Below are positions 30,351 to 38,156 of a stretch of DNA of 51,501 nt, one piece after another. The stretch is from contig CAIYLG010000059.1 of NCBI GenBank assembly GCA_903927025.1, positions 1 through 51,501 on the forward strand. Direction: 5' to 3'. The notes below the pieces were generated by a model. That model did no database searches, was not told the origin of the DNA, and saw only the letters and a list, made by a program, of their open reading frames with translations. This DNA comes from an uncultured Armatimonadota bacterium. GTDB taxonomy: Bacteria > Armatimonadota > Fimbriimonadia > Fimbriimonadales > Fimbriimonadaceae. Both the position numbers and the translations under genes were made by a program. The stretch's first letter is position 1; each line of letters starts with the position of its first letter.

Positions 30351-31061
30351 CTACTTCATGTGGAACAGGCCCTGCTTGATGAATTCGATCCAGATGAAGT
30401 ACATCCGGTCGATCAAGAGCGTGAATCGCATCATGACGGTGGAACCGAAGATCGCACCAAAGCCGATCATCAGCAGCCAGCGGCCCGTGGTCGAGCTCGC
30501 CTTGAGCAGCTTGCCCTTCACATCGAAGCTGAACAGGAAATACGTGAGAACCGTAAGAACCGTGATCAGCGAGATGATATTGGTGAGCGCTTCAGAGCCG
30601 TAGACGCTTCCTGCGGCGGCATCCGCCGGCTTGAAGAACCCACTCTGATTGGGAAGGATTGGCTTCATGGATGCTGTGAACAGCGGTCCGTAGTAGGTCA
30701 TCCATGCGCCGAACTGCTGTCCTGAGTAGAAACCAAGGATCATTCCGATTGGAATCTTGCTGATCCAGTTGTGCTTCTTACTGAACACCAAGTAGCCCAT
30801 GAGGCCAATTGGCAACAGAACGACGTACATCCAATAGCCCATCGAGGCAGTGTTGCCGTCGGAGGCAGATGCCCCGAGCATCTTGTCCCACCAGCCGGAC
30901 TTTAGAACTTCAGTCCAGAGGGCAACGAGAGCCCAACCAGATGCCAGCCCAAGGAACACGTGCTCCCAGAACCGATAGAACTTGTTCTCTTTGTACAGAA
31001 CGCTGTAAAGGCCCAAGGTGGCGGTGACGGCCACCAGCTGCTTAAGGAGATCGTAATTCAT
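30351..31061 (-). CDS. Uncharacterised polytopic membrane protein (cluster gene 6)
   Basis: A 236-residue protein with about six hydrophobic segments. They include VTATLGLYSVLY, WEHVFLGLASGWALVALW, WMYVVLLPIGLMGYLVF, IGMILGFYSGQQFGAW, IISLITVLTVLTYFLF and a late one from GFGAIFGSTVM onward. The loops carry KENKFYRFWEH and SKKHNWISK. I do not recognise the family. GGAG lies about 10 bases before the start, and the preceding gene stops 3 bases upstream. It is the last of six consecutive genes for membrane-associated proteins and probably a channel-like or scaffold subunit; that is inference. Confidence 0.8.
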   Translation of the reverse strand: MNYDLLKQLVAVTATLGLYSVLYKENKFYRFWEHVFLGLASGWALVALWTEVLKSGWWDKMLGASASDGNTASMGYWMYVVLLPIGLMGYLVFSKKHNWISKIPIGMILGFYSGQQFGAWMTYYGPLFTASMKPILPNQSGFFKPADAAAGSVYGSEALTNIISLITVLTVLTYFLFSFDVKGKLLKASSTTGRWLLMIGFGAIFGSTVMMRFTLLIDRMYFIWIEFIKQGLFHMK

Positions 31062-31064
31062 GAG

Positions 31065-32021
31065 TTATTTGCTCCCCTTTTTGCTCAGCAGCATTCCCAC
31101 ATTGCCCACAATGACGGCAATGATGAGCAAGGCGAGGGCGAAGTGCAGGGCAAGGTAGTAAGCCGTGCCTTTACCGGTGTTCCCTTTTCCGGGCCACCCG
31201 GGAATTTTCTCCCCACGGTACAAATCAGACTCGACCGAATCTGACCCGTTGTTGATGCCATTCTCCATGAGCGTCTCAAGGTCGTATACGCCCTTCACTC
31301 CACCGCAAAGGCCCTTAAGCTGCTTCGCTGCGTAGTAGGAATTGTTTTCCGGAACCATAACTCCGGAGACCATGAACATCAGTGGGCACTTCGTGATCCG
31401 CTCTAAGACCGTTCTATTCGTGCTGGATGCTGTGACCAGATAAAACATGTTGAAGTCCTCGACCGACTTCACGCCTTGGAACACTGGCGACTGAAGGGCA
31501 TCCTTGGGGCCAGCGCCCTCTGGGAAATCCTTCTTGCCTTGTGCAATCGAGAGGATCTTGTTGTTCACTGCGAGGATCGTTCCTTCACCTGCGGCAAAGT
31601 AGCCTAGGTTTACGTAGTCCTCAAATTCCTTGTAGGGAGTTCCGCCAGTGAGCTTCTCTAATGCGTTGACCTCGCGTATGGTGTCCTTAGCGACCTGAGG
31701 AGCCTGCACGTCTCCGATAGACATCAGCACAAACTTGATGTGCTTCCGCATCAGCAGCTTGAGCAAAACCTCCATCTCACCCTTACTCTCACCGCGGGTG
31801 CTGTTGGTCCAGTCGGAACAAATGATGACTCGGCCATTGTCTGGCAACTTCATGGTCTGACCGTAGAAGTCGATGCTCGCGTCAATCGGCTTGTTCGGAA
31901 GCTTGACCGAGAAGAAGAGAGGGACCGTACAAGTCACCAGCAGGATTCCGTAGATGACCTGCTTGGGCAGAGATTGAAGTTTCTCTGCCAGAGACGGCGC
32001 TTGGGATTCATTCATAGCCAT
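31065..32021 (-). CDS. Uncharacterised membrane-anchored protein with a large soluble domain (cluster gene 5)
   Basis: A 318-residue protein with one helix near residues 22-38 (VIYGILLVTCTVPLFF) and one near 288-308 (YYLALHFALALLIIAVIVG). The 250 residues between are soluble and probably extracytoplasmic. They begin NGRVIICSDWTNSTRGESKGE and contain KFVLMSIGDVQAPQVAKD, a layout that recalls Rossmann-like or periplasmic domains. Four cysteines are spread over it. The start overlaps the previous stop (TAATG). The family is not recognised. Confidence 0.8.
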   Translation of the reverse strand: MAMNESQAPSLAEKLQSLPKQVIYGILLVTCTVPLFFSVKLPNKPIDASIDFYGQTMKLPDNGRVIICSDWTNSTRGESKGEMEVLLKLLMRKHIKFVLMSIGDVQAPQVAKDTIREVNALEKLTGGTPYKEFEDYVNLGYFAAGEGTILAVNNKILSIAQGKKDFPEGAGPKDALQSPVFQGVKSVEDFNMFYLVTASSTNRTVLERITKCPLMFMVSGVMVPENNSYYAAKQLKGLCGGVKGVYDLETLMENGINNGSDSVESDLYRGEKIPGWPGKGNTGKGTAYYLALHFALALLIIAVIVGNVGMLLSKKGSK

Positions 32022-32941
32022 TAGCCTTCACCTCCCGTCTTCTCAAGGCTAAGCCAGAGGCGAAGTCCCATCGCAAGGAGTCCGATACCCACGCCGAAGT
32101 CGATACCTCGAATCGCAGGGGTTTGAACGTTTGAGCGAAGCCATCCTGACATCGCACTCAACTTGAAGCTCTGCACGAAAGCGTGCATTCCGAAATTGGT
32201 CGGGCTGATCTTGTCGATGAACCCGCTCCACAGGAACTCCACAACTCCCATAAGGCTCAAGATGACCAAGAGTGCTGTCAGGAGGAGAATTGTCGCTTCT
32301 ACCGATCTCGCTCGGAACGCGCGGTAGGCGGCTGAGAGGATGTAGAACGCGACGATGGAGAACATTCCAGCGTCCATGTTCTGCAACAGGCCGTCGAAGA
32401 GGAGATCCCGACCGTAGTTGATCAATCCCCAATTCTTCTGGTCTGCCAGGATGAAGTTCTTCGGATCTTGGTGCTGGATCCAGTCTCCAAATCCAAAGAA
32501 CACCATCACGACCATGCTTCCAACAAGAACTGCACTGAATGCCCAGTCTCGCTGCTGCTTGGCAATTCGTCCAAGGTGAACTCGAAGAAGAGAATAGATT
32601 CCAAGGCCAATCAAGAAGCCAGAGATCACGTTCGTCAAGCTGGCAACTACCAGCTGAGAATCAGAGACCCAGAAGCTGAAGGTTTCAACAGCATTGCGGG
32701 GAGCGCTCGTCGGCTGTCGGTCAATTGGGGCTGGGAACAGCCAGAACATGACGTAGAAGAGGCCTGAGCCAAACGTCACGAGTCTAATGATCCACTTTCT
32801 AAGCTGTGGCGGAGCATAGAGCATTCCCACCGTGGCTGCAACGGCAAGGATCAGTGCAATGAAGATTTTCGCGTAAAGCTCGAATGAGCCGTTGGGCGCA
32901 TTCCAGAATGTTTTAGGATCGATATCTAAAAGGAAGTTCAC
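32021..32941 (-). CDS. Uncharacterised polytopic membrane protein (cluster gene 4)
   Basis: A 306-residue protein with about eight hydrophobic segments. They include IFIALILAVAATVGMLY, LVTFGSGLFYVMFWLF, LTNVISGFLIGLGIYSLL, FSAVLVGSMVVMVFFGF and ILLLTALLVILSLMGVVEF. The N-terminus NFLLDIDPKTFWNAPNGSF is unusual and precedes the first helix. A conserved-looking cytoplasmic loop reads HLGRIAKQQRDW. Its start overlaps the upstream stop by four bases (ATGA). I do not recognise the family. Confidence 0.8.
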   Translation of the reverse strand: MNFLLDIDPKTFWNAPNGSFELYAKIFIALILAVAATVGMLYAPPQLRKWIIRLVTFGSGLFYVMFWLFPAPIDRQPTSAPRNAVETFSFWVSDSQLVVASLTNVISGFLIGLGIYSLLRVHLGRIAKQQRDWAFSAVLVGSMVVMVFFGFGDWIQHQDPKNFILADQKNWGLINYGRDLLFDGLLQNMDAGMFSIVAFYILSAAYRAFRARSVEATILLLTALLVILSLMGVVEFLWSGFIDKISPTNFGMHAFVQSFKLSAMSGWLRSNVQTPAIRGIDFGVGIGLLAMGLRLWLSLEKTGGEG

Positions 32942-33873
32942 TTCGAACCACCCCCTGATGGCGTCGGCAGCTCGCTTGCAGGAAGCTTCTCTCGCTCAAT
33001 TTTCACGTCAGCAGGATCTGCCTTGAGAAGGTGCGAGAAGAAGGTGTCGGACTGCTTAATCTGGCGCGGTTTGGGAAGGTCGACCATCTGTCCCTTCTTG
33101 AACTCCTTAGAGATCTCTCCTCGTTGCTGGATCGTATTGGCGATTGTGCCCATAACGACCAAGGCGATGATGGCGAGTTTGCACCAGTCCTGCCCGATGA
33201 GACTTCCAACCAGAACCGGCTGCCTCGTTAGGAACGCACTGGCGGCATAGAACTCGTCACCGATAAGGACATAGTCGCATGCAGCGATAAAGAATGGTGT
33301 CTGCGTCAACTCCGTCGAGCTGGCGACCTGGATGGCACCGACCGAGTTGGCAGTCTCAGCGAGAATCAGCGACTCCGCGTAGAACTCACCCATGAAGAAT
33401 GTGGCGGCCGCCTTCTCGCGGAGAATAAGGCCAGAGACGCCGGCGGCGAAAGCAAACTGTCTGTCGCTGATGAACCGGACCGAGTCCACATCAAACTGGT
33501 CCGCGAGTCCTTCCTGCTGATAAACGTCTCGAATGATTTCTTGGGCAACCGTGTAGGTTGAGGCGTTATAGCAACAGACGAGGATCGGGTTACCGAACCG
33601 AGCAGCAACGCGACTGACATAGGCAAAGATATTGATTGCCTGCATCGTCTTCGCATTGACGGTGGTATCGGTGAGTCCCGGAACCATCAGAACGGGACGC
33701 CCCATTTCTGTAGCGCGCCCTACGGCTTCGTCGATGGCGTTGAGACCGGCGATTCGGCGGATGTAGAGATCCTTGCCGCCATGCGCACGATAGATGTTGA
33801 TCAAGATGAACGTCACCATCAAAAGGGTGAGCGCAATCATGAACCAACCGGTGTCTTGATACTGGTTACCCAT
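32938..33873 (-). CDS. Membrane-anchored protein of unknown function, DUF6754-like (cluster gene 3)
   Basis: A 311-residue protein with an N-terminal helix (FMIALTLLMVTFILINIY) and a second helix near residues 230-250 (KLAIIALVVMGTIAN). The long domain between contains VLMVPGLTDTTVNAKTM, GNPILVCCYNASTYTVAQEI, RFISDRQFAFAAGVSGLI and FMGEFYAESLILAETAN. From memory these resemble the family called DUF6754, but I cannot verify that. The tail is charged and ends PTPSGGGSK. It is translationally coupled on both sides (TAATG and ATGA) and may be the most conserved member of the cluster. Confidence 0.8.
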   Translation of the reverse strand: MGNQYQDTGWFMIALTLLMVTFILINIYRAHGGKDLYIRRIAGLNAIDEAVGRATEMGRPVLMVPGLTDTTVNAKTMQAINIFAYVSRVAARFGNPILVCCYNASTYTVAQEIIRDVYQQEGLADQFDVDSVRFISDRQFAFAAGVSGLILREKAAATFFMGEFYAESLILAETANSVGAIQVASSTELTQTPFFIAACDYVLIGDEFYAASAFLTRQPVLVGSLIGQDWCKLAIIALVVMGTIANTIQQRGEISKEFKKGQMVDLPKPRQIKQSDTFFSHLLKADPADVKIEREKLPASELPTPSGGGSK

Positions 33874-34166
33874 TAACTGTCCTTTGCTTCCGCCAGCTTG
33901 GGCTTTTCTTCCAGCTTGCGGATGAGCCTTTCGACGTTGGCCCGGTCTGCCAACAGTCGACTGTAGTTGTTCACAAAATCGTAACCTAGAAATGGCACCG
34001 CAAACGGTGCAAAGACTAGCGATGCACTTGCGCCGATAAAGGCAAGGGGCTTGTGCATTTCGAAGAAGAGAATAGCGGGAGTTTCAAGCTTTCGCTTGCG
34101 AATTTCTTCAGTTGCCTTCTGGATCAGCGCCTCGGTCTCGTCCTCGGTCAGGTCCGTGGACCACAT
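33873..34166 (-). CDS. Small single-helix membrane protein (cluster gene 2)
   Basis: A 97-residue protein from ATG 34166. An acidic-basic helix (EDETEALIQKATEEIRKRK) is followed by a hydrophobic stretch (FIGASASLVFAPFAVPFLG) and a charged coiled helix (RANVERLIRKLEEKPKLAEA). A TTG at 34187 would add seven residues. Either start lies inside the upstream gene, which ends at 34108, so about 59-80 bases are read in two frames. The stop overlaps the next start by one base. The family is not recognised. Confidence 0.72.
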   Translation of the reverse strand: MWSTDLTEDETEALIQKATEEIRKRKLETPAILFFEMHKPLAFIGASASLVFAPFAVPFLGYDFVNNYSRLLADRANVERLIRKLEEKPKLAEAKDS

Positions 34167-34617
34167 GTTCGTCGCTAAGTTGTCCAAAAGCTAAAACCGC
34201 CCTCTCAACTTGCTCACGATTGTCTGCCCCGAATCGCAGGTAGACACCCCGAAACGCGTCCATGGTGCCCGCACTCTCCAGGGGAGAGAGCTTGACGCCT
34301 TCGGAGTCGAAAACAGCACGCTTAACATCTGTCCAATCTATTGTCGAAAAGCTGAAACCTGTTCGAACCGAAGCTCGTTTTTCATCAACAGCAAAGATGG
34401 TGCCAAGCCAGAACTCTGCAGTTGATCCGAAGATAATAGCAAACCCAACGACTCCAAGAACGAAATTTCGAAAAAGCGCCACTCCAATAACAAAAGCGAC
34501 GATGCCTGCGGCAAAAATGACCGCTGTTTTCTGGGGTGCTTTATCCGAAAGACGAACCTTCCAGCGGATCGCTTCAGGAATTTGCCCCTCTGTCGCAGAT
34601 GGTTCATCGCCAGCCAT
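34108..34617 (-). CDS. Membrane protein with a PH-like domain (cluster gene 1)
   Basis: A 169-residue protein. Two hydrophobic segments, about residues 31-50 (TAVIFAAGIVAFVIGVALF) and 53-73 (LGVVGFAIIFGSTAEFWLG), are followed by a beta-rich region. FSFSTIDWTDVKRAVFDSEG, FRGVYLRFG and VERAVLAFGQL resemble bacterial pleckstrin-homology (bPH) domains. The last 20 residues (from HVVHGPDRG) overlap the next gene in another frame and have a different, Arg/Gly/Asp-rich composition, so they may be a recent extension. It starts 14 bases inside prs and heads the six-gene cluster. Confidence 0.7.
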   Translation of the reverse strand: MAGDEPSATEGQIPEAIRWKVRLSDKAPQKTAVIFAAGIVAFVIGVALFRNFVLGVVGFAIIFGSTAEFWLGTIFAVDEKRASVRTGFSFSTIDWTDVKRAVFDSEGVKLSPLESAGTMDAFRGVYLRFGADNREQVERAVLAFGQLSDEHVVHGPDRGRDRGADPEGN

Positions 34618-35614
34618 GGAAGAGTTCGCTTACCGACTCGTTTAGGTGGATGCGGCGGATCGCATCGGCGATGAGCGGAGCCGATGGCAGAACCGTGAGT
34701 TTAGGAAAATCCTCTCCTGCCTGATTGGGGATCGTGTCCAAAACCACAATCTCAGAAAGACAGCTGTCCTGAAGCCGGGTCCGCGCGTCCTTGCTGAATA
34801 CGGCGTGGGTTGAGCAGGCAATCACCTCTCGAGCGCCTCGATCCATCAGTGCCTGAGCGCCCATGATGATGGATCCGCCAGTGTCGATCATGTCGTCAAT
34901 CATTACGCACTTCTTGCCGACAAAGTCGCCCACGATTTCCACAACCTCAACCACATTTGGGGCGGGCCGACGCTTGGCGATAACAACGAAGGGGCATCGG
35001 AGCATCTCTGCAAGAGATTTGGCTCGGCTCACTCCCGCGACATCCGGACTTACGACCACGATGTCCTCCTGCTCATGGAACCCTCGATCCACGAAGTACT
35101 GGCCTAAAATTGGCCCACCGTAGAGGTGATCTACCGGCACGTTGAAAAACCCCTGGATCTGCTCCGCGTGCAGGTCGATGGCTACAATTCGGTCGGCACC
35201 GCTCGCCTCAAGGAAGTTGGCGATCAGTCTCGCCGTAATCGGCTCGCGCGGCTTAATCTTCTTGTCCTGCCGCGCATACCCGTAGTACGGCATGACCACC
35301 GTGATGCGCCGAGCAGATGCCCTTCTGAATGCGTCGAGCATGATGAACAGCTCCATCGCATTGTCGTTCGTGGGGTTGCAGGTCGGCTGGAGAATGAATA
35401 TCTCATTTCCCCGAGCGCTCTCCTCAATCATGATGCGGATTTCGCCATCGGCAAACTTCGTGGTCGTCAGCTTTCCGAGTTCGACACCCAGCTCAGCCGC
35501 AACGCGCTTGCCAAGCTCAGGGTGTGCATTCCCCGAAAAGAGCTTCATCCCGTCCAGAGACCGCTCTTTCAACAACTTCCCGATTTTTTGATTTTGCGCC
35601 AACGTGCTGCCCAT
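34604..35614 (-). CDS. prs: Ribose-phosphate pyrophosphokinase
   Basis: A 336-residue enzyme that makes PRPP from ribose 5-phosphate and ATP. The FADGEI and YGYARQDKK segments, the catalytic flexible loop RRPAPN and the PRPP-binding CVMIDDMIDTGGS loop are all present. The start is uncertain. ATG 35614 has GAAGGAAGG directly upstream but overlaps glmU by 46 bases. An internal ATG at 35548 gives MKLFSGNAHPEL, exactly where E. coli-type Prs proteins begin. The stop overlaps the first membrane-cluster gene by 14 bases, so PRPP synthesis and the cluster share a transcript. Confidence 0.94.
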   Translation of the reverse strand: MGSTLAQNQKIGKLLKERSLDGMKLFSGNAHPELGKRVAAELGVELGKLTTTKFADGEIRIMIEESARGNEIFILQPTCNPTNDNAMELFIMLDAFRRASARRITVVMPYYGYARQDKKIKPREPITARLIANFLEASGADRIVAIDLHAEQIQGFFNVPVDHLYGGPILGQYFVDRGFHEQEDIVVVSPDVAGVSRAKSLAEMLRCPFVVIAKRRPAPNVVEVVEIVGDFVGKKCVMIDDMIDTGGSIIMGAQALMDRGAREVIACSTHAVFSKDARTRLQDSCLSEIVVLDTIPNQAGEDFPKLTVLPSAPLIADAIRRIHLNESVSELFHGWR

Positions 35615-36963
35615 CCTTCCTTCGTTTCCTGCCTGGCTCTTCCAAATGCTCCAGCCTCATCGGGCACGTCATGAGTGATGACTGAGCCCGCCGCAACTAT
35701 TGCTCCGGTTCCGATGCGCACCGGAGCCACCAAGGTGGAATGAGACCCGATGAACGCATTCGCGCCGATCTGGGTCTGGTGCTTGTGGTAGCCGTCGTAA
35801 TTGCAGGTGATGGTGCCGGCACCAATGTTGGTTTCTTCGCCAACAGTGGCGTCGCCGATATAGGAAAGATGATTGACCTTGGCGCCTGGGCCGAGGTTTG
35901 CGTTTTTGATCTCTACGAAGTTGCCAGCCTTGCTTCCGTCGGCCAGGTTCGCCTTAGGACGGAGGTGTGCATATGGGCCAACCCAGACTTCGGAGCCTAC
36001 TACAGCCCGATCAACGTAGCTCGCGATAATCGAAGATCGATCTCCGATTGAGGAGTTCTCAATTCGCGTGTACGGGCCAATCTTGCAGCCCGAGCCGATC
36101 GATGTGCTGCCAACGAGGAGAGTTGCAGAATCAATGACCGTATCTGGCCCGATGGTGACGTCCACACCGATTGATATCGTGTCGATATTGCCTAGCGTCA
36201 CTCCATTGAGGGCGTGCTTCTTCAGAATTCGAAGCCGCATCTCTCGATCTGCTAGAGCAAGTTGCCATCGGTCGTTGACTCCAACCGTGATCTCCGGATC
36301 GTCAAAAATCTTCGCGGCAAGAACGCCGCCCTGGTTCTTCACGACCTCAAGCACATCGGTGAGGTAGTACTCGCCCTGCGCGTTCGTGTTGCTTAGGCTA
36401 GGGAGGATCGAAAATAGCGTCGGACAATCGAAGCAGTAGAGCGCAACGTTGATCTCACGGATCGCCTTCTCCTCTGGAGAGGCATCTTTCTCTTCGACAA
36501 TCTTTGCAGGATTCCCCATATCGTCCCGGACGATTCGACCGTAGCCCTTAGGGTCCTCCAGGATGCTCGTGGACAGGGTCACTGTCGCTTTCGCGCTCTG
36601 ATGCGCTTCACATAGCTCGACGAACGTTTCCGCCTGCAGCAGAGGTGTATCGCCAGCGGCAACGATGACGGGTCCCTTGTGATCTACGAGGAAGTCCTTC
36701 GCCATCAGCGCCGCGTGACCGGTTCCGAGCTGCTCATGCTGCCAAGCGTAGTCGTAAGACTCGCCAAGTGCCTCCCGAATCAGATCGCCGCCATGACCGA
36801 TTACGATGATCGGTCGCTCCACACCGGCAGCCTTCATCGCTCGCGCCACGTGCTCAACCATCGGAATGCCACAGACGCGATGCAGACCCTTTGGCAGCTC
36901 TGATTTCATTCGCGTACCCTTGCCTGCCGCAAGGATGATGCCGGCGATTGAAGAGGAATTCAT
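35569..36963 (-). CDS. glmU: Bifunctional UDP-GlcNAc pyrophosphorylase / glucosamine-1-phosphate acetyltransferase
   Basis: A 464-residue enzyme making UDP-N-acetylglucosamine for peptidoglycan and lipopolysaccharide. The N-terminal uridylyltransferase begins GIILAAGKGTRMKSELPKGL. The C-terminal acetyltransferase is a left-handed beta-helix with hexapeptide repeats (VDVTIGPDTVIDSATLLVGS and after). I start at ATG 36963; an ATG at 37050 would add 29 unrelated residues. It is the likely first gene of the run to recO. An inverted repeat GAAATCCC/GGGATTTC (37036-37072) lies about 75 bases upstream, in the gap shared with upp, and could be an operator. Confidence 0.95.
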   Translation of the reverse strand: MNSSSIAGIILAAGKGTRMKSELPKGLHRVCGIPMVEHVARAMKAAGVERPIIVIGHGGDLIREALGESYDYAWQHEQLGTGHAALMAKDFLVDHKGPVIVAAGDTPLLQAETFVELCEAHQSAKATVTLSTSILEDPKGYGRIVRDDMGNPAKIVEEKDASPEEKAIREINVALYCFDCPTLFSILPSLSNTNAQGEYYLTDVLEVVKNQGGVLAAKIFDDPEITVGVNDRWQLALADREMRLRILKKHALNGVTLGNIDTISIGVDVTIGPDTVIDSATLLVGSTSIGSGCKIGPYTRIENSSIGDRSSIIASYVDRAVVGSEVWVGPYAHLRPKANLADGSKAGNFVEIKNANLGPGAKVNHLSYIGDATVGEETNIGAGTITCNYDGYHKHQTQIGANAFIGSHSTLVAPVRIGTGAIVAAGSVITHDVPDEAGAFGRARQETKEGWAARWRKIKKSGSC

Positions 36964-37159
36964 TTGTGGTTCTTGTCCGACAGTTGTTAAGAACCGGACG
37001 GAACATTTTGCCCCTTTTGGATGCACGAGGGCAATGAAATCCCCCGACATTGAGCGCCTATTGCGGGATTTCCGATTCTGAGCGAGATGAATCCGAACCG
37101 GAGCCCAACTCCTGTGAGCTTGCTTCGCGTGCTAGCGTCAAACGGATTAGAATAGGTGA

Positions 37160-37962: not shown

Positions 37963-38014
37963 TGTTCCCTCTTCACCTCCGGCCTAAACCGGCGTCGTGC
38001 GCGCGCATCCGACT

Positions 38015-38140
38015 CATGCTACGTCTACGGGGTTAGCTGTCGGGTTCGGGCCAAGAGTTACCCTAGAGAATCAAACTGACTCTCATTCACCCCTAAGTTA
38101 CGGTTCCCCCGTTTTCCTTTTGGGAAATTCAACGCTGGCT
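38015..38140 (-). ncRNA. Cyclic-di-AMP riboswitch (ydaO/yuaA type)
   Basis: On the minus strand, three hallmark segments of the ydaO aptamer appear in the right order. These are ACGGGGGAACC (38112-38102), AGGGGTGAAT (38094-38085) and CCCGAACCCGACAGCTAAC (38050-38032). A variable stem GAGAGTC/GATTCTC (38084-38066) and TAGGGTAAC lie between them. The outer P1 stem pairs GCGTT (38135-38131) with GACGT (38025-38021) using two wobble pairs. A pseudo-two-fold arrangement of repeated GAA.CC and GGGG blocks is typical. Ligand binding usually shuts off expression. The expression platform is unclear: CCGG at 37989-37992 can pair with CCGG at 37979-37982, next to the GGAGG ribosome site, which hints at translational control. 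Confidence 0.93.
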
Positions 38141-38156
38141 TTGCAGCCACGAAAGT

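Follow-up and report, generated by a model that had tools for sequence, protein, structure and literature searches.

What does a cell do with six contiguous genes for membrane proteins, only one of which belongs to a named family? The question is raised by a locus between prs and recO in an uncultured bacterium of the Fimbriimonadaceae (phylum Armatimonadota). The window, that is, the whole stretch of 51,501 nucleotides (nt) that was analyzed, is contig C59 of its 5.25-Mb genome. The six proteins could be the membrane part of an eight-component, ATP-dependent envelope complex in which an ATPase of the ASKHA type is coupled to an extracytoplasmic domain, a reading whose chances we judge to be about even. 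That the system has eight parts, namely the six cluster proteins, the ATPase (MutL) and a soluble protein (BSH), is held with high confidence. Coupling of ATP to the outside falls somewhat short of an even chance, and the envelope role is put forward tentatively.

The six open reading frames (ORFs) fill positions 30351-34617 and are listed here in transcription order, with the domains of two of them (TM, transmembrane helix).
34108-34617, minus strand: PH, an accessory membrane protein with two helices and, at its C-terminus, a PH-like beta domain; supported by its ORF and by orthologues that come first in the cluster
33873-34187, minus strand: S104, an accessory subunit that is small and has a single hydrophobic stretch (PAILFLEMHKPLAF)
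32938-33873, minus strand: D6754, a DUF6754 protein and central core subunit with a TM-Rossmann-TM layout, from Pfam PF20539 and an AlphaFold (AF2) model
33226-33750, minus strand: residues 42-216 of D6754, forming a Rossmann-like domain; predicted to be cytoplasmic from AF2 secondary structure and charge bias
32021-32941, minus strand: TM8, a polytopic core subunit, from orthologues and helix prediction
31065-32021, minus strand: RosB, a core subunit with a TM-Rossmann-TM layout, from orthologues throughout and an AF2 model
31260-31883, minus strand: residues 47-254 of RosB, forming a Rossmann-like domain; predicted to be extracytoplasmic from the AF2 model and charge bias
30351-31061, minus strand: TM6, a polytopic core subunit, from orthologues and helix prediction

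The initial annotation had described six minus-strand genes joined by overlaps or 3-base gaps from prs to recO, and every ORF was found where it had placed it. Its helix counts agree roughly with ours (two each in D6754, RosB and PH, six to eight in TM8, five to six in TM6 and one hydrophobic stretch in S104).

A conserved module with a four-gene core

Genome searches covered the Armatimonadota (201 genomes, 141 of them good) and 14 controls. All six genes stand in identical order in 13 of 13 loci from the class Fimbriimonadia (L032-L044; D6754 identity 56-79%), where prs and recO adjoin the cluster wherever the contig extends far enough. Iterated profiles recovered D6754-TM8-RosB-TM6, in unchanged order, in all 20 loci from approximately 18 further families, hereafter the outer families; 15 of these loci carry all six genes, and one small contig begins too late to show PH and S104. 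The core order is therefore kept in 33 of the 33 Armatimonadota loci first examined and the full set in 28, a conservation that excludes a chance arrangement. Flanking genes vary by family (glmU/prs-recO, dxs, ATP-binding cassette (ABC) transporters and many others), and because of this, the conserved entity is the unit itself and not a large syntenic block. Within the Armatimonadota, no homologues were found scattered without their partners.

PF20539 is present in 128 of the 141 good genomes, in all 52 good close relatives and in none of the 14 controls. In a D6754 tree, sequences cluster by family (f1, f7, f18 and f35) and the outer families form one supported clade (100/99), which is consistent with mainly vertical descent. 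Relatives of D6754 were absent from phage, plasmid and viral collections, and those of BSH from plasmid and viral collections, making a mobile or phage origin unlikely. Proteins of a kind similar to TM6 probably occur in other phyla.

Several genomes contain a second module of the D6754 family, which in six loci (L093-L096, L098 and L100) always consists of D6754-TM8-RosB-TM6 without PH or S104; L062 holds a second module of similar kind. Since second modules carry those four genes only, gene content shows them to be the fixed core unit and PH and S104 to be accessory. Tandem duplicates of D6754 (L070, L071) and RosB (L051) were also seen. In L093-L095, the D6754 paralogue has lost pieces of motifs that are invariant elsewhere; the paralogue of L093 and L094 adjoins ABC sugar permeases.

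The partner ATPase and a putative soluble adaptor

In families f21, f26, f27, f30 and f41, two extra genes lie between S104 and D6754. The first encodes a protein of approximately 600 residues that matches the Pfam family MutL (PF13941; E 4e-126, and 1e-131 for the copy in this genome). The second encodes BSH, a soluble and presumably cytoplasmic protein of approximately 372 residues with weak barrel-sandwich similarity, whose stop overlaps the D6754 start in L048. In f15 (L064), MutL and BSH follow TM6, an arrangement that links them to the cluster in another way; other families have MutL and BSH as a pair or apart. This genome has one MutL gene near rplJ/rplL (C9:36366-37865) and one BSH gene (C15:47874-48995). 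The biotin/lipoyl family PF00364 scores 24.2 bits against BSH in L048 (cut-off 22.1), yet no single stretch passes, and it has no match in the BSH of this genome. Between MutL and BSH, a one-helix protein of approximately 240 residues with a predicted start was observed in one genome each of f9 (L084 7828-8556) and f25 (L085 7590-8312); the former has no Pfam match.

Among 16 MutL sequences, every catalytic motif of the ASKHA fold is invariant: D14xG16S17T18xT20K21 (phosphate-1, consensus DxGSTxTK), D310xGGATTDV (phosphate-2, DxGGATTDV) and G449xGG (adenosine, GxGG). Owing to this invariance, MutL is predicted, very likely correctly, to bind ATP. The initial annotation had stated that no ATPase motif is recognizable; this holds for the six cluster proteins but not for the system, whose ATPase is encoded on another contig.

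MutL is not, by its scores, GlmL, the accessory protein of glutamate mutase. The long MutL reaches 225.6 bits against the GlmL equivalog NF040745 (cut-off 475) and 186 bits against the subfamily TIGR01319 (cut-off 204.05), whereas the short GlmL of L089, also of the Armatimonadota, passes NF040745 with 597 bits; the long form also has a C-terminal extension of approximately 110 residues not found in short GlmL. The glutamate mutase E subunit GlmE (PF06368) was absent from all 92 good genomes searched for it, this one included, and one weak match was seen in G063. With scores below the equivalog cut-off and glutamate mutase absent, the name 'glutamate mutase L', which annotation pipelines give this ATPase, is misleading, and a glutamate mutase accessory role was rejected on the same grounds. 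A related proposal draws on the shared superfamily and the PF13941 match. It takes MutL for a common GlmL-type protein that assists or reactivates a B12 mutase and is tied to the cluster only incidentally; set against the same scores, the extension and the missing GlmE, as well as MutL's linkage to the cluster and joint absence with it, it is barely credible.

Joint presence and absence across the phylum

Among the 201 genomes, DUF6754 was found in 173, PF13941 in 183 (179 above its cut-off) and BSH in 182. Comparing D6754 with a strong MutL match, 168 genomes have both and 17 have neither, with 11 and 5 discordant (Fisher p 2e-13); in the good genomes, the numbers are 127, 10, and 3 and 1 discordant (p 5e-12). 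Discordant genomes are mostly incomplete assemblies. BSH is missing from all 17 genomes with neither, and RosB and TM6 from all 16 of these that were tested, while both were found in 7 of 7 positive controls.

Besides f6, good genomes without the whole set belong to f1 (genus g15), f9 (g26, g62 and g92) and f11 (g87), and in f1, f9 and f11, sister genera keep everything. Such independent losses within three families are a stronger point than the p-values. Linkage in two arrangements and joint absence, which are both properties of the genomes compared, show MutL and BSH to belong to the same system as the cluster. The earlier description of the six proteins as a fixed multi-subunit membrane complex is thereby upheld as to a fixed module, since gene order is conserved, the parts are absent together and the paralogous modules consist of four genes. 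It falls short in that the six are not the whole system and that PH and S104 are accessory; physical assembly of the subunits into one complex is something we infer.

Two nearly complete 1.5-Mb genomes of the Fimbriimonadaceae (G181 and G185) are without the system and without the phosphodiester glycosidase NAGPA, and PilM and Poly_export are almost lost from them. They represent a streamlined lineage that is useful as a natural knock-out.

Anatomy and topology of the subunits

Of the six proteins, D6754 alone is named by Pfam. It matches DUF6754 over positions 9-251 of the 257-position profile (E 1.2e-91; 306.8 bits vs a cut-off of 27), so that, in this one member, family resemblance is more than the weak one noted at the outset. 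NCBIfam and PADLOC matched none of the six, and sequence searches of solved structures (PDB) with D6754, RosB, TM8, TM6, BSH and MutL yielded nothing meaningful. Matches of PH to Pfam are all sub-threshold, DUF3040 (PF11239) reaching 21.1 bits against a cut-off of 24.7; its conserved motifs are W..VK, SPL and FRGVYLRF. TM8, with six helices in outer families and up to eight here, carries the motif SAAYRAFRxRSxEA, and TM6 the motif YRxxEHxFxGLA.

The AF2 models of RosB (predicted local distance difference test, pLDDT, 93.3; predicted template modelling score, pTM, 0.89; confident) and D6754 (pLDDT 87.6, pTM 0.73; good) both consist of a TM helix, a further helix, a six-stranded alpha/beta Rossmann-like domain and a second TM helix. 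Structure searches with both (Foldseek/VIA) returned generic Rossmann matches only, with a best Z of 8.8 for RosB and, for D6754, 11.8 (Sir2) and approximately 10 (RCK domains). Because the matches are generic, the fold is ordinary and silent on function, and we assign neither protein to an enzyme family. Across 50 sequences, 23 residues of D6754 never vary. Several of them follow strand ends, namely G66 (strand 1), Q139 (strand 3), G162/E167 (strand 4) and G205/E207 (strand 6), and in the model these would sit where Rossmann folds bind ligands.

Charge bias predicts that the two Rossmann domains lie on opposite sides of the membrane. The net charge of D6754 is -0.6 before TM1 and +3.0 after it, and that of RosB is +1.4 before TM1 and +2.6 after its last TM; the domain of D6754 would accordingly be cytoplasmic and that of RosB outside. 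The N-terminus of D6754 in outer families is signal-like and an fn3 domain is present; in f44, D6754 has a lipobox and an N-terminal region of approximately 270 residues ahead of TM1. Both agree with an N-terminus outside. D6754 and RosB share an identical order of elements, and their profiles align colinearly (hhalign p 0.0017, probability 16%), a result that is the best of 13 pairs and not significant.

A putative envelope complex and its alternatives

In the proposed mechanism, MutL would bind and hydrolyze ATP in the cytoplasm and so serve as the energizer. BSH would bridge MutL to the cytoplasmic Rossmann domain of D6754, a placement suggested by the position of its gene between MutL and D6754 and by its overlap with the D6754 start. 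A conformational change might then pass via D6754 and the helices of TM8 and TM6 to RosB, with TM8 and TM6 as the membrane body and RosB as the outside effector or receptor. PH and S104 would be membrane-proximal helpers that, on the inner face, keep the complex stable or in place. Outside, the complex would most likely assemble, turn over or present an envelope component. Taken further, the system could be a new class of transmembrane energy-transducing machine, in which a possibly homologous TM-Rossmann-TM pair is inserted in opposite orientations, with one domain inside and one outside, and is driven by an ASKHA ATPase through a soluble adaptor; we regard this as an unlikely, if distinct, possibility.

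Several points weigh against the envelope complex. Its envelope role is read solely from membrane location and scattered glycan-gene neighbours. In most families, this one included, the genes for MutL and BSH lie away from the cluster, and the co-occurrence p-values ignore shared ancestry. Additionally, three good genomes (G023, G055 and G106) have MutL without D6754; all three are fragmented assemblies of 440-1060 contigs, and the MutL of G055 was read as the short GlmL type.

No known transporter or secretion system was matched, and transport nevertheless deserves a hearing as an unlikely but not fanciful explanation, in which the pathway would run through TM8 and TM6, RosB would catch a solute on the outside, and MutL and BSH would provide energy or gating. 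Two polytopic subunits and an exposed alpha/beta domain would suit this role, as would the sugar permeases beside the second modules of L093 and L094 and the RCK-type ligand-sensing domains (Z approximately 10) among the structural matches of D6754. However, RCK is equalled in score by Sir2 and generic Rossmann proteins, TM8 and TM6 match no transporter family in Pfam, NCBIfam or PDB apart from one sub-threshold Nramp match, and TM8 is without an obvious invariant buried acidic residue; moreover, we know of no ASKHA ATPase that acts as a transport motor. Signal transduction, with RosB sensing a ligand outside, D6754 relaying it and MutL and BSH passing it to two-component regulators, appears distinctly improbable. 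Rossmann domains predicted on both membrane sides would fit it, as would OmpR-type regulators adjoining BSH in the Fimbriimonadaceae and TM6 in L049, and the histidine kinase/receiver genes in L045. Yet regulators are abundant genes, the BSH neighbours are unrelated in most other families, and eight parts with an ATPase make a large complex for a sensor.

A role as accessory factors of an established envelope machine, for instance in type IV pili or the export of capsule, is very improbable. Wza/Wzz-type genes beside BSH (L083) and NAGPA genes (L083, L086 and L120) might point to it. Most genomes without the system retain PilM (9 of 10), Poly_export and NAGPA, and because these are kept where the system is absent, the system does not act as an accessory to their pathways. 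A pattern of joint loss with pili, capsule export or NAGPA was rejected, the exceptions being the losses in G181 and G185. As regards anti-phage defence, no PADLOC model matched any of the six.

Transcription unit and neighbouring genes

The genes of the cluster are closely coupled. PH and S104 overlap by approximately 60-80 nt (80 nt from the TTG start at 34187, approximately 59 nt from an ATG at 34166); the ATG is the likely alternative start of S104, as it matches orthologue N-termini. TAATG is common to the S104/D6754 and TM8/RosB junctions, D6754 and TM8 overlap by GTGA, and 3 nt separate RosB from TM6. Since PH is overlapped by prs (14 nt) and prs and glmU overlap each other (window 34604-37050, minus strand), transcription probably begins further upstream, at glmU-prs, and the six genes would be co-transcribed in this class with the synthesis of uridine diphosphate N-acetylglucosamine (UDP-GlcNAc) and phosphoribosyl pyrophosphate (PRPP).

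A cyclic di-AMP (ydaO) riboswitch (88 bits; window 38008-38144, minus strand) is aimed at the glmU-prs-cluster operon approximately 1 kb downstream; upp, encoded on the other strand, lies between the two. The same arrangement occurs in L032, the riboswitch precedes a different gene in L033, and seven other loci yielded none.

Genes for response regulators, which are of OmpR type in those checked, adjoin BSH in five loci of the Fimbriimonadaceae (L079, L090, L108, L109 and L110), and a similar regulator or kinase gene follows TM6 in some outer families (L049, L053 and L045). This adjacency is real in the Fimbriimonadaceae and not general. Glycan genes neighbour BSH in some families (L079, L083, L086 and L120); in three unrelated families (L083, L086 and L120), BSH adjoins a gene for secreted NAGPA with a Big_1-like C-terminus.

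Relation to known systems and significance

The system matches no known kind in the searches made, and later functional study may file it under one. Our search of the open literature found no paper on DUF6754 or PF13941. D6754 covers the full DUF6754 domain, which is here placed in a defined multi-gene system. MutL shares the ASKHA core and its invariant phosphate and adenosine motifs with the glutamate mutase accessory GlmL/MutL (PF13941; NF040745, TIGR01319), but differs from it in length (approximately 600 vs 460 residues), in scoring under the cut-offs, in the absence of glutamate mutase and in its tie to membrane genes. PilM, GspL and FtsA are ASKHA proteins recruited to inner-membrane machines, and an actin-fold ATPase that serves a polytopic envelope complex from the cytoplasm would work like them; this is an analogy without sequence membership, and PilM is separately present in genomes with and without the system. 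The RCK/TrkA domains of K+ channels and transporters likewise place a Rossmann lobe on membrane helices, whereas D6754 is without GxGxxG, holds its domain between two TM helices and is matched equally or better by Sir2 and unrelated Rossmann proteins.

The tie to a specific ATPase corrects a misleading annotation. Moreover, the system is now testable, as the soluble ATPase and adaptor offer biochemical bait and genomes without the whole set are natural knock-outs. Kept in approximately nine tenths of good genomes and in some 40 families, the system is likely to be basic to building or running the envelope of these bacteria.

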